Shown here: piece by piece, positions 46,347 to 50,306 of the stretch | Layout: each line of letters begins with the position of its first letter | How positions within the stretch are numbered: position 1 is the stretch's first letter | Source of the DNA: Oligoflexia bacterium | GTDB lineage: Bacteria; Bdellovibrionota; UBA1018 | Assembly (NCBI GenBank): GCA_903895855.1 | Contig: CAITVN010000094.1 | Location: 1-61,958, forward strand | DNA length: 61,958 nucleotides | Direction of reading: 5' to 3' | Program-made: the position numbers and the translations under genes | The notes under the pieces: generated by a model | Databases searched by the model: none | The model's input: only the letters and a program-made list of their open reading frames with translations | What the model was told of the DNA's origin: nothing

Positions 46347-47615
46347 TCACGCATCGGTTTTTCTTATTCTCAAACGCCAAAGCGCCAATCCAAAGAGAAC
46401 GCAAAAGCTTAGGAGATTTGAAAAAAAGAAAATCCGGACTAGGTCTTCAGGGGCCTGTGGAGGGCTCACTTTGACCCAAATTAAAAGCGAAGCAATGCCG
46501 GCCCCAAGTCCAGCCAAGTAAGATTGACTGCGGCGGGCAAATAATGAAGCAGCGACAATTTGAATGAGGGTCGATAAGCTTGCAACGAGGCCCACTTTCG
46601 GCAGCAGGCTAGCGCCTGCCAAGTACTGACCGCCCAATAGGGTATTTAAAAAAAACGTCGGAAACAGGGCGGTCAAAATGACAAATGACCCAGAAACAGT
46701 CGCGGCGAGTAGTAAGGTTTGAACGAGTACCTTGAACGCGCTCTTCTCGTTGGGCGCTTTGGCGGCTTCAGGCAGTAGCAGACTGATGAGCATGAGCGGT
46801 AAAAAGGCGGCGATTCGAGCGATGACGGTGACGCCCGAGTACATACCTGCGGTGTCAGCGCTCAGGTAGGCTTTTGCCCAGACGACGTCAAGTTGGGTGA
46901 GTAGGTTAATCGCAATAAATTGAAGCAAAATGGGCGCACCTTGAATAACCAATGGCGATTTTTGAACGATCGTTTTCGACGCGGCTTCATTCGCTGGGAG
47001 AGCGACCTCAGGACGATGTGACTTGAGCCTAAAGTCGACTCGCTTTTTCAAGAAATAGGTGGCCACCCCTGTGCCCAAGGTAATCGCCGCTAACGCGCCG
47101 AAGTGCCTGAGCTGAAGTAGGCCAACCAAAAGCAACGTGAATGCGAGGCGAAAGGCGTACGCCGCCGCAGTGTAACTGGTGGTTCGCACGTATTCAAATA
47201 GCCCATTAAGAGCGCCTGCGTAGAGGCCAAAGAAGTAAGTTGCTACGACGGCCGAACTGTAAATAAGGAGTGCTGTGCCGGTTTCGAGGTGAAGGTAATC
47301 GGTGAGTAGGGGAGTGAAGAGCCACAATCCACCCGTGGTGATGAGGGTTGAAATCCAGGTAAAGCGGGTCAGTGCTCGAAGCTGTGTTGCTTGTTCGAGG
47401 GGTGACCCACCCAGTTCAGCGATGTTTCGAGCGGTCAGCGTCTGAATGAGGTTAAAGAGCGATAGCACAATGGTGCCCAGCGCATTGATGGCGTTAAAGG
47501 TTCCAAAATCAGAAGTGCTTAACGTGTGGCCCAAATAGATTTGAACTAAATAGGTCGCCAGACTCGCAAAATTTGAGAGAAATAAAATGAGCAATTGTGA
47601 GCGTAGCAGTGTCGT
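46347..47615 (-). CDS. Polysaccharide/oligosaccharide flippase (MOP superfamily)
   Basis: 422 residues from ATG 47615 with about twelve to thirteen hydrophobic helices, of the Wzx/PST (MOP) type: N-terminal LATYLVQIYLGHTLSTSDFG and a central loop before AALAAITLG. Members move lipid-linked sugars from the cytoplasmic to the periplasmic face. The annotated longer frame (to 47687) would start inside the 338-bp palindrome, hence 47615 is preferred, although the ribosome site there is weak. Part of the minus-strand glycan operon with GT2, methyltransferases and the large membrane protein. Confidence 0.8.
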   Translation of the reverse strand, partial: TTLLRSQLLILFLSNFASLATYLVQIYLGHTLSTSDFGTFNAINALGTIVLSLFNLIQTLTARNIAELGGSPLEQATQLRALTRFTWISTLITTGGLWLFTPLLTDYLHLETGTALLIYSSAVVATYFFGLYAGALNGLFEYVRTTSYTAAAYAFRLAFTLLLVGLLQLRHFGALAAITLGTGVATYFLKKRVDFRLKSHRPEVALPANEAASKTIVQKSPLVIQGAPILLQFIAINLLTQLDVVWAKAYLSADTAGMYSGVTVIARIAAFLPLMLISLLLPEAAKAPNEKSAFKVLVQTLLLAATVSGSFVILTALFPTFFLNTLLGGQYLAGASLLPKVGLVASLSTLIQIVAASLFARRSQSYLAGLGAGIASLLIWVKVSPPQAPEDLVRIFFFSNLLSFCVLFGLALWRLRIRKTDA

Positions 47616-47676
47616 CATTGAGTAATAAAAATATAAATGAGTTTTTGAGAAAAAGACAGCGGTAGTCTCGCCGTGT

Positions 47677-48014
47677 CTAGTCTCCACTCAGAATTTCAAT
47701 TCAGTCAGCTTTCGAATTTGTGGGAATTTGTAGGAATTTGTAGGAATTTGTAAAAAGACATTCCGCAGCCACAGTATCGGCGGCTGTATTTTTTAAGAAG
47801 TGAGCTTGGCTATCACTCCATTTTTGCTCCCCAAACTTCATGTTTTCTTGCTTTCGGCATCCATGCCTTGCAAGAGTCGTAAAAATGGAGTGATATCCAA
47901 GCTCACTTCTTAAAAAATAGACGCAGAGTCAAAGGCGAGGACGTCTTTTTATAAATTCCTACAAATTCCTACAAATTCGAAAGCTGACTGAGTTGAAATT
48001 CTGAGTCGAAACTA
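47677..48014. repeat. 338-bp nested palindrome (MITE-like or structured RNA)
   Basis: The outer arms are 47677-47759 and 47944-48014: CTAGTCTCCACTCAGAATTT pairs with a mirror copy with few mismatches, then 10-bp units GGAATTTGTA occur (about four on the left, three on the right). The inner arms 47787-47825 and 47881-47919 (TTTTTTAAGAAGTGAGCTTG and its complement) match at 38 of 39 bases. The 55-nt loop holds CTTGC/GCAAG and GGCAT-CC-ATGCC. CTAG flanks both ends, the right one overlapping the TAG stop of the upstream gene. No ORF lies inside. Confidence 0.85.
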
Positions 48015-50306
48015 GGATCCGTTTTCAGTCACTGATTGGGTGTCTAAAATCCAACGACTGGGCGTGGGTACGGGATCTTTGAGCCTGAGTTTTGAAACGT
48101 TCTGAAGAGGCTCGATGTCGCTACTGATATCTGAGTAAAGCCTCAATTCAAAAATGTCTTTAGGCTGAGATTCAAATTTCAAGGTCACCTGCCACTGTGG
48201 AAAATTCGGGTGGGCAGCAACACCCTCGCGAATAACGGCACCTGTCGATTGATTTCTTAACTCAAAATGCAGTTCCGGATTGAGTGGAGCGCCTAGTGAA
48301 TGGTCGTATCCACCGGCTAGAATCCAGGTGAGTTTCTTGGGCTTTTCAAAGCCCGGCAATTCGGGGTGATCGAGGAGTGCTAAAAAATTTCGGGTGATTC
48401 GATCGGCAGGTCTGAAAACTCGAGGCGGGACGAGCCCTTTTACAATAAATGGCTTAAACTCATGTTCGTACAAGAAGTGTGACGCAAAAAGTGCCGGTGC
48501 CACGTTAAAGTTTTCTGGCTTTTCAGAGTCACGCGCCTCGTATGCAATGATTCCTTTTTCTGAAGGTAATTTTTTGAAGCAGCGTGAAGCCTCGAGGGCC
48601 GCACGGTAAAACGGGGCGGCTACGTCAACCACTAAGTAGCGTATTCCGTGACTTGCCAGCTCACAGGCCAGCGACTCGTTCCAATCTTTGGTTCGGTTTG
48701 AGAGTTTTGTCAGCTCGTGTGCAAATCGGGTATTACTAGGAGCTCGATACTCGGCGTTAAGTACCGGCATGCCGTGTCCGAGACGTAAAAAGCGAAAAAT
48801 GTAAAATGATTCTGGCGTGTCATTGGCCGGCGAATCGAATGGCAAATGCATGAGCCAGCCTTGGGGCTTATTCGCGAAAGTTTCTTTGATCGCTTCAGTG
48901 CTCGGTAGTTGATACCGTTTAAACTCAGAAAAGCCACGACCCACTTTGATGTCAGCAACAAAAAACACCCCGAAAACCAAGGCCATTGTGCCCATTTGTC
49001 GATAGAGTTTATTCTTGACTGAGTAGCTGAACCATTGGGTGAGTAAAACGCCAAAGATCAAAAACGCCGCGAGGTGAAAGAAATTGAGCGCACGGTATCC
49101 CACTCGAAACATGGGGGCGACTTTGAACGTGAACGGAACCAGCGAGAAAAAATATTTCTCTGGCCGCAGTCCGAAAGCGAAAAGTACCAGCCCGGCAACG
49201 AGAATGGGGAAAATGAGAGAACGCCGAACACGTAGCCAGCGTTCACCTTTTGGCATGGCCTTGACGAGTGTCACTCCGCAAAATAGCGAGATCAGCGGAA
49301 GCATCAATCCCAATCTAAAAGTCTGCTCGACGGTTCCTTTTCTTGAAATGTCAGGCAATGAAAGGGCTTTGAGCCAAGGGTGGCTCGTCATGAGAATTTG
49401 GGTCCAAGGGTGAAGTGACCAGAATGAAAAGTCGAGTGCAGCCTGGCGGTAAGGGTCTGACGGAGTGAACCCGAAAGGCGGTGGCGAAAAATGATCTGAT
49501 ATCATCGATGGAAAAAGTAACCAAAATAGAGCGACAAAGATCGCTAAAGACGTAGCAATTGCGAGAACGAGGCGAGAGAGCTGAAAATCTGAATTTTGGT
49601 AGGGCTTTGATTGAATGAATGACACGATTAAAACAACGAGTGCGAACCATGCAGCGAAGTAACCAATGTATTCGGTGTGTGCGAGGCCAAGAACCGTAAA
49701 AACCGCAGTTGAAGCAATTCGCTTTAGCGTGGGGTTCTTGCCGGCGCGCAGTGCGCAGACTGTGGCTAACATTGGCCAAAAAAGTGAGATGAGGCCCAGG
49801 TGTCCGGCCATACGCATTGGGAAGTGGTCAGAGTTCAGATAGAAGTAGGTGAGGGCAGCCGCGACCAAAGCGTTGACTTTGAGTTCACGGCACAAAAACA
49901 CGAACCCAATACCCGAAAGAACAACGGAAGCATAAGCGAGCCAGTCAAAGAGGTGTCTGGGGTCGACGAATTGGCCGAAAGCAACTAATAGAAAACGCCA
50001 ATACGGATTGGTGGGCCAAGCGTTGAGTGCGCCCATGAGCAATGACTGAGGCACAAAACGGTCGCGAAATAATTCAATCCAGGGCCGAGTTTTCAACTCA
50101 TCGATCAAGATGCCGTAATTTGAAATGGTGCCGATTCCGTCGCCACGGTCAGCAAAACTGAGGTTGATGTCAATGAGTGTGCGGGCGCAGTACCAGGTGA
50201 AGGCGATGAACACCGGAAGCGTAAAACAGAAATACCATTTCCAAGAGCTAGGGTTTTTCTTGAAATCAATTATCGCACTTCTAAAAAATTTTTGTAGGGC
50301 ACACAT
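48012..50306 (-). CDS. Large polytopic membrane protein, GT-C-like
   Basis: 764 residues: about eleven to twelve hydrophobic helices in the first 480 residues, then a periplasmic domain (about 490-764) with beta segments (HLPFDSPANDTPESFYIFRF, IRYLVVDVAAPFY). The pattern of a membrane core with an N-terminal aspartate-containing loop (SFADRGDGIGTIS) resembles lipid-linked glycosyltransferase GT-C proteins or YfhO-like proteins; no exact family was identified. Its stop codon sits in the end of the palindrome and it follows a methyltransferase by 9 bases in the same operon, so a glycan function is plausible. Confidence 0.75.
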   Translation of the reverse strand: MCALQKFFRSAIIDFKKNPSSWKWYFCFTLPVFIAFTWYCARTLIDINLSFADRGDGIGTISNYGILIDELKTRPWIELFRDRFVPQSLLMGALNAWPTNPYWRFLLVAFGQFVDPRHLFDWLAYASVVLSGIGFVFLCRELKVNALVAAALTYFYLNSDHFPMRMAGHLGLISLFWPMLATVCALRAGKNPTLKRIASTAVFTVLGLAHTEYIGYFAAWFALVVLIVSFIQSKPYQNSDFQLSRLVLAIATSLAIFVALFWLLFPSMISDHFSPPPFGFTPSDPYRQAALDFSFWSLHPWTQILMTSHPWLKALSLPDISRKGTVEQTFRLGLMLPLISLFCGVTLVKAMPKGERWLRVRRSLIFPILVAGLVLFAFGLRPEKYFFSLVPFTFKVAPMFRVGYRALNFFHLAAFLIFGVLLTQWFSYSVKNKLYRQMGTMALVFGVFFVADIKVGRGFSEFKRYQLPSTEAIKETFANKPQGWLMHLPFDSPANDTPESFYIFRFLRLGHGMPVLNAEYRAPSNTRFAHELTKLSNRTKDWNESLACELASHGIRYLVVDVAAPFYRAALEASRCFKKLPSEKGIIAYEARDSEKPENFNVAPALFASHFLYEHEFKPFIVKGLVPPRVFRPADRITRNFLALLDHPELPGFEKPKKLTWILAGGYDHSLGAPLNPELHFELRNQSTGAVIREGVAAHPNFPQWQVTLKFESQPKDIFELRLYSDISSDIEPLQNVSKLRLKDPVPTPSRWILDTQSVTENGS

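Follow-up and report, generated by a model that had tools for sequence, protein, structure and literature searches.

A MITE-like foldback element family with a conserved two-hairpin apex in an Oligoflexia bacterium

We analysed a 61,958-nucleotide stretch of an Oligoflexia bacterium genome (the window) and found that a nested palindrome at positions 47677–48015 belongs to a repeated family of MITE-like foldback elements, in which a two-hairpin apex is conserved and the arms evolve partly in step. The family occupies about 29 loci in this genome, the window copy counted. It was not classed with the MITEs proper because target repeats are not clear and no partner transposase of the window subfamily was found. 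With moderate confidence, we favour the explanation that a transposase carries the window palindrome as a non-autonomous passenger and that template switching keeps its arms complementary. Under this proposal, the hairpin would spread as a passenger, one arm would serve during replication as the template for the other and so restore complementarity, and the conserved apex would be needed for movement or for arm copying, in which it would most likely form the turn of the DNA hairpin.

Structure of the palindrome and its copies in the genome

The original prediction had described a nested palindrome inside an operon, and its geometry held up on measurement. The outer arms of the window copy (47677..48015, + strand) are 66 nt long and 92% complementary (47677–47742 and 47950–48015), with a second register at 97% (47724–47759 and 47943–47978). 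The inner arms (47787–47825 and 47881–47919) match at 38 of 39 positions, as had been proposed. Folded as RNA, the + strand of the palindrome reached a minimum free energy of −188.4 kcal/mol, compared with −75.1 ± 5.0 kcal/mol for 100 shuffles, none of which was as low (z = −22.7).

Read along the + strand, the left outer arm (47677..47759) is followed by the left strand of an asymmetric internal loop (ATTCCGCAGCC..., 47760..47786) and the left inner arm (47787..47825). The apex starts from CTCC at its foot, which most copies have (47827..47830), continues through hairpin 1 (AAACTTCATGTTTT, 47833..47846) and hairpin 2 (CTTGCTTTCGGCATCCATGCCTTGCAAG, 47847..47874), and is closed by AGTCG (47875..47879). 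The right inner arm (47881..47919), the right strand of the internal loop (...AAAGGCGAGGAC, 47920..47942) and the right outer arm, with CTAG at its end (47943..48015), complete the element. Both loop strands are present in most complete copies of this genome. The 10-bp unit GGAATTTGTA, noticed earlier, was recovered four times in the left arm (as GAATTTGT units at 47714–47752) and three times in the right, the arms differing by one unit. By eye, the unit array (47714–47752 and 47950–47979) was seen in both window arms and in no other aligned copy from this genome.

The element lies between two genes on the − strand, and no ORF of 90 aa falls wholly inside 47677–48015. The 764-aa ORF upstream in transcription (48012..50306) has its stop codon at 48012–48014, within the terminal CTAG of the element, in agreement with the predicted overlap; a Pfam scan of this ORF gave no match. 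The predicted flippase start beside the palindrome stood as to its place, with a flippase-like 446-aa ORF (46347..47687) beginning at the other end, downstream. Its Pfam match, to Polysacc_synt, was below threshold (20 bits, curated cut-off 28.2). The longest reading frame of this ORF starts within the element, and the true start is probably nearer than that.

A search for further copies, suggested along with the original prediction, found them both in this genome and in relatives. The DNA search of the genome returned 37 matches (40 of 52 candidates scored), with some copies matched on both strands, and all 31 further places that were fetched held a copy or partial copy. The locus count takes into account that L016/L020 and L038/L039 look like halves split by contig ends and that L027/L031 represent a single locus, as alleles or as duplicates. 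Contigs of this genome ended inside hairpin copies at L016/L020 (end of C187, start of C227), L038/L039 (starts of C70 and C78) and L017 (end of C180), and the matching halves suggest which contigs may adjoin.

Complete copies have in common the inner stem and the apex, in which two small hairpins stand between CTCC and AGTCG, each of these two with variants. An outer stem and the asymmetric loop, whose two sides are ATTCCGCAGCC and GGCGAGGAC, are also present in most of them. In L021, L030, L032, L033, L034, L036 and L037, at least one of the loop strands was changed or missing. The stem arms vary between copies and match within a copy. The ends of the window subfamily read approximately TATGCACTTGAC...CCTAGCC.

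Paired change in the arms and the strand on which pairing is kept

Covariation was assessed in 28 aligned copies (26 from this genome and two from relatives), and both sides changed at 36 of 45 stem pairs. Two-sided changes were found in 240 cells, compared with 67.4 in shuffles, and one-sided changes (wobble-type, to another standard pair) in 20. Close paralogues within the genome (18 close pairs from 26 copies) yielded 100 changes from one Watson–Crick pair to another, 33 one-sided changes and nine others, where 12.0 Watson–Crick to Watson–Crick changes would be expected of independent arms; this comparison is gapless, counts a paired gap several times and uses pairs that are mutually non-independent. 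Leaving out the three L022 pairs, in which a paired gap inflates the count, gave 73 paired, 33 one-sided and nine other changes (8.9 paired expected). For 198-bp elements from another taxonomic family of the order, the corresponding numbers were 35, 156 and 39 (15 close pairs from 11 elements; 8.2 paired expected). Thirteen orthologue comparisons, in which loci were reused and for which no expectation was computed, yielded 22 paired changes, 174 one-sided changes and 37 in which both sides changed otherwise. Because the orthologue arm changes are mostly one-sided, pairing outside this genome mostly decays.

In their passages on template switching, PMC8794818 names several compensatory changes together, extension of the stem, loop changes that match and loops that are inverted, and PMC8604942 names arm homogenisation and spacer inversion. 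Among the hairpins, a paired one-base gap was seen by eye between L022 and L024. The centre is inverted between L027 and L031, whose flanks are 92.8% identical, and between L152 and L168, where the right flank alone is collinear. In the paralogues L226 and L227 the inner hairpin is flipped against the outer loop, with 21/22 and 20/22 loop bases matching the flipped strand. The left loop strand of L021 is the complement of its right loop strand. In L032, the end of an M23 peptidase gene forms the left arm (in a fragment of 157 aa, the Pfam PF01551 match extends to residue 152), and an inverted copy of that end forms the right arm. Contig-level inversions in MAGs may be assembly errors at palindromes; such an error is less likely for L226/L227 because both lie in long contigs of another genome. 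The replaced loop strand of L037, where the right side has no matching strand, could be a flip or a loss and was left uncounted. L158/L174 were dropped as a case of host coding DNA copied into an arm, as the mechanical ORF call ends before the arm.

Arm homogenisation, stem extension and an inverted centre are features shared with the template-switch homogenisation of quasipalindromes, as these are presented in the relevant passages of PMC8604942 and PMC8794818. The systems treated there are short repeats or RNA stems, whereas the family here is repeated and mobile-like and has arms of up to about 140 bp. We infer that template switching, rather than selection, restores the pairing.

We find it unlikely, if well short of negligible, that the pairing is instead kept by selection. 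Each arm of a MITE-like element would then mutate in the ordinary way, template switching would play no part, and natural selection would favour a DNA hairpin or cruciform, which might serve, for example, as a substrate of transposase or replication. Three observations would agree with such selection: the near-symmetric mismatches, as of a structure that both strands must form; the conservation of the apex across the order, which probably reflects some selection on it; and the predominance of one-sided changes outside this genome. Selection accounts less readily for paired changes being frequent in close copies of this genome, including the paired gap of L022/L024, and it predicts neither the inverted centres nor the gene-end arm. 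That arm, a real gene end with its inverted copy opposite, is what one would see if each insertion built its arms anew by inverted duplication of target host DNA, with the conserved apex as the turn. We regard this origin as very improbable: 22 of the 28 short elements of the other family measure 193–199 bp and have common outer repeats, the arms in this genome have a common consensus, so that most look element-derived, and L158/L174 are ambiguous as a second case.

The original prediction had also offered a highly structured non-coding RNA acting between two operon genes, and this reading found no support. If one RNA strand were selected, G–T (G–U) mismatches should exceed A–C mismatches. The counts of G–T and A–C were 20 vs 17 in inner stems, 33 vs 28 in outer stems, 33 vs 44 in the copies of this genome, 100 vs 143 in the other copies (an unexplained A–C excess, p = 0.007) and 33 vs 51 in the 198-bp set. 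A mechanical ORF call was available on both sides for 57 of 66 copies, and the flanking ORFs of these were convergent in 25, co-directional in 13 and 13 (the two core orientations) and divergent in six. The balanced strand and the few divergent sites fit a DNA element. The matched arms within copies, the paired changes between paralogues, the lack of a G–T excess and the lack of a transcription strand bias together fit pairing that would be maintained on DNA and not on one RNA.

An RNA, or a 3' RNA element, between the two genes would explain the very stable fold and the distribution of sites (25 copies between convergent and six between divergent ORFs), and the mild A–C excess would be wobble on the opposite strand. 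We nonetheless consider it improbable, given a core strand without G–T excess, an even orientation of the core to transcription, and a core that is inverted between alleles. An Rfam search at E ≤ 10 returned seven matches, none of which reached its gathering score; all were to hairpin families of the microRNA type, the best being MIR5284 (39.2 bits vs 93). GGA in hairpin loops is the motif of CsrA-type RNAs; the apex read backwards has GGA in its hairpin loops, but the GGA varies among copies, and this candidate was rejected. Covariation is commonly read as a strong sign of functional RNA. The hairpin family would be a warning case, with a large covariation signal and yet no G–T excess, no strand bias and inverted centres.

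Mobility, termini and the transposase

The idea of a non-autonomous mobile element, the other half of the original prediction, found support, with gaps. In its favour are the many copies at unrelated loci, a hairpin site that is filled in genome G032 and empty in G052 and G039, and the terminal repeats that hairpins in another family of the order have in common with a transposase element; against it, the ends of the window subfamily differ. In that other family, to which the same three genomes belong, hairpins of about 198 bp and elements of 1,026 bp share their 25-bp terminal repeats, with CTGGCATCTTTGAGTGGGCATGG repeats at both ends of the hairpins and of the longer elements, which encode a 303-aa protein. 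These terminal repeats lead us to regard the ~198-bp hairpins as probable passengers of the 1,026-bp transposase element.

The 303-aa protein has a predicted DDE/RNase H-type transposase fold with conserved acidic residues (64-row structure prediction, used in place of a poor single-sequence version with pLDDT 38). In a fold search with this protein the catalytic domain filled the list, and the absence of other families there is uninformative. A likeness to the IS1 family is suggested by this fold and by weak matches to the NCBIfam IS1 transposase model NF033558 (29.9 and 25.2 bits), whereas the scores lie under the cut-off of 100 bits and the transposase-bearing elements are about 1.0–1.1 kb long with a single ORF of 303–338 aa (ORFs listed for L216, L217 and L244). 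A protein search with this DDE-type group (L216:651-1562, L217:725-1636, L244:1348-2364) found 4,448 relatives, and a Pfam scan of two members gave no match. The hairpin family thus links a conserved apex with a DDE-type transposase group lacking a Pfam match.

The genome of the window holds one relative of the 303-aa transposase (46% identity), between 26-bp repeats (TAAACTGCTC...) that are 85% complementary, and the ends of the window subfamily are unlike these repeats. A pattern search for longer elements with window-subfamily ends found none, a weak test with four places found in all. Of 30 genomes, 12 had the transposase, and having it was unlinked to having hairpins: G021 (19 transposase matches) and G017 (10) had no hairpin match, and G036 and G038 were the reverse. 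We infer that a transposase like that of the other family may have moved the window subfamily, despite the different ends.

CTAG is present at both ends of the window copy and had been read as a target duplication of the IS5 type. This reading lost its basis when only one of 27 copies examined (of 32 pieces) proved to have CTAG at both ends; elsewhere the CTAG is internal to the arm. As for direct target repeats in general, flank identity at the assumed ends was at the level of chance (33 elements), the best of 90 shift and length settings reached z = 2.2 (22 elements), and one imperfect direct repeat was seen by eye, at L200 (TAAATCTCT/TAAATCACT).

A tentative further possibility is that the two-hairpin apex itself acts as a DNA signal. 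It would belong to a self-templating hairpin module that travels in several insertion-sequence lineages by adopting their terminal repeats, with arms rewritten from one another so fast that just the apex, the loop and the ends stay fixed. In that case DNA shape, and not arm sequence, would define a class of mobile hairpin. The hairpin family would be a natural panel of some thirty loci for measuring arm copying in replication.

Among known systems, prokaryotic MITEs, as reviewed in the pertinent part of PMC10969869, resemble these elements in being short and intergenic, without a long ORF of their own, with terminal inverted repeats and many copies; the hairpins of the other family of the order resemble them additionally in having terminal repeats in common with a transposase element. 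The differences are that here the arms drift, partly in step, around a two-hairpin apex that has been kept across the order, that clear direct target repeats are lacking, and that no partner transposase of the window subfamily was found in its own genome. REPs and REPINs with RAYT (TnpA-REP), as described in the parts of PMC8266576 and PMC3733652 that concern them, are likewise intergenic DNA hairpins that occur in many copies and look mobile. REPs are given there as 20–40 bp, and the hairpins here are roughly ten times longer. Twenty RAYT/Y1 loci were fetched with about 1.5 kb of flank, and a search of 18 of them for hairpins gave no match at E ≤ 1. Y1 matches occurred in 13 of 16 genomes searched (11 above cut-off) but did not adjoin hairpins, and a RAYT/Y1 mobiliser was rejected.

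Two arrangements in G032 involve the termini. At L222 (about 1069–1132; C2:494068-494131), two terminal repeats separated by 18 bases make up a 64-bp palindrome, perhaps a collapsed element. At L225 (C4:162418), one hairpin element was apparently inserted into the terminal repeat of another.

Distribution across the phylum and beyond

The number of genomes with detectable members depended on the search. DNA search gave matches in three of 40 relatives, and the covariance model R1 (inner stem and apex) in 19 of 117, the genome of the window included in both. The R1 matches numbered 27 in G032 (all 27 candidates scored), 20 in G039, 19 in G052 and eight in G038. Among 368 genomes from the phylum, a broader model, R3, detected members in 29, again with the own genome included, and in 17 of 181 genera (E ≤ 1e-4, eight candidates scored per genome); the weakest of these matches could be chance palindromes. 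Model R2 (five base pairs, from a poor alignment) was not used. An exact pattern scan of one genome per species in 84,980 species, other phyla included, retrieved 41 stretches, of which 35 belonged to the family by eye and six were chance-like (L093, L102, L111, L120, L124 and L129). Named members were mostly Bdellovibrionales MAGs. A viral, phage or plasmid origin was considered and rejected, two pattern scans of viral contigs, one phage search and one plasmid search, the last two with one query each, having given no match. The family is not described in the literature searched, including the relevant parts of PMC8604942, PMC8794818, PMC10969869 and PMC8266576, which is no proof of its being unpublished.

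A second, unrelated palindromic repeat (GCTGCTCAAAAAGGTCAAGATGCGAGG...GACCTTTTTCAGCAGC) was observed in G052 (L178:546-725 and L172:about 2290-2480), and at the corresponding site G039 has two hairpin elements. In G018, both hairpin copies (L064 and L084) have a common segment downstream (GGGCGCCCACGAGTTCCCTGCGACAGCAGGG-TGTCTGAAGTGGGCGTCCTCTT), with one base different.
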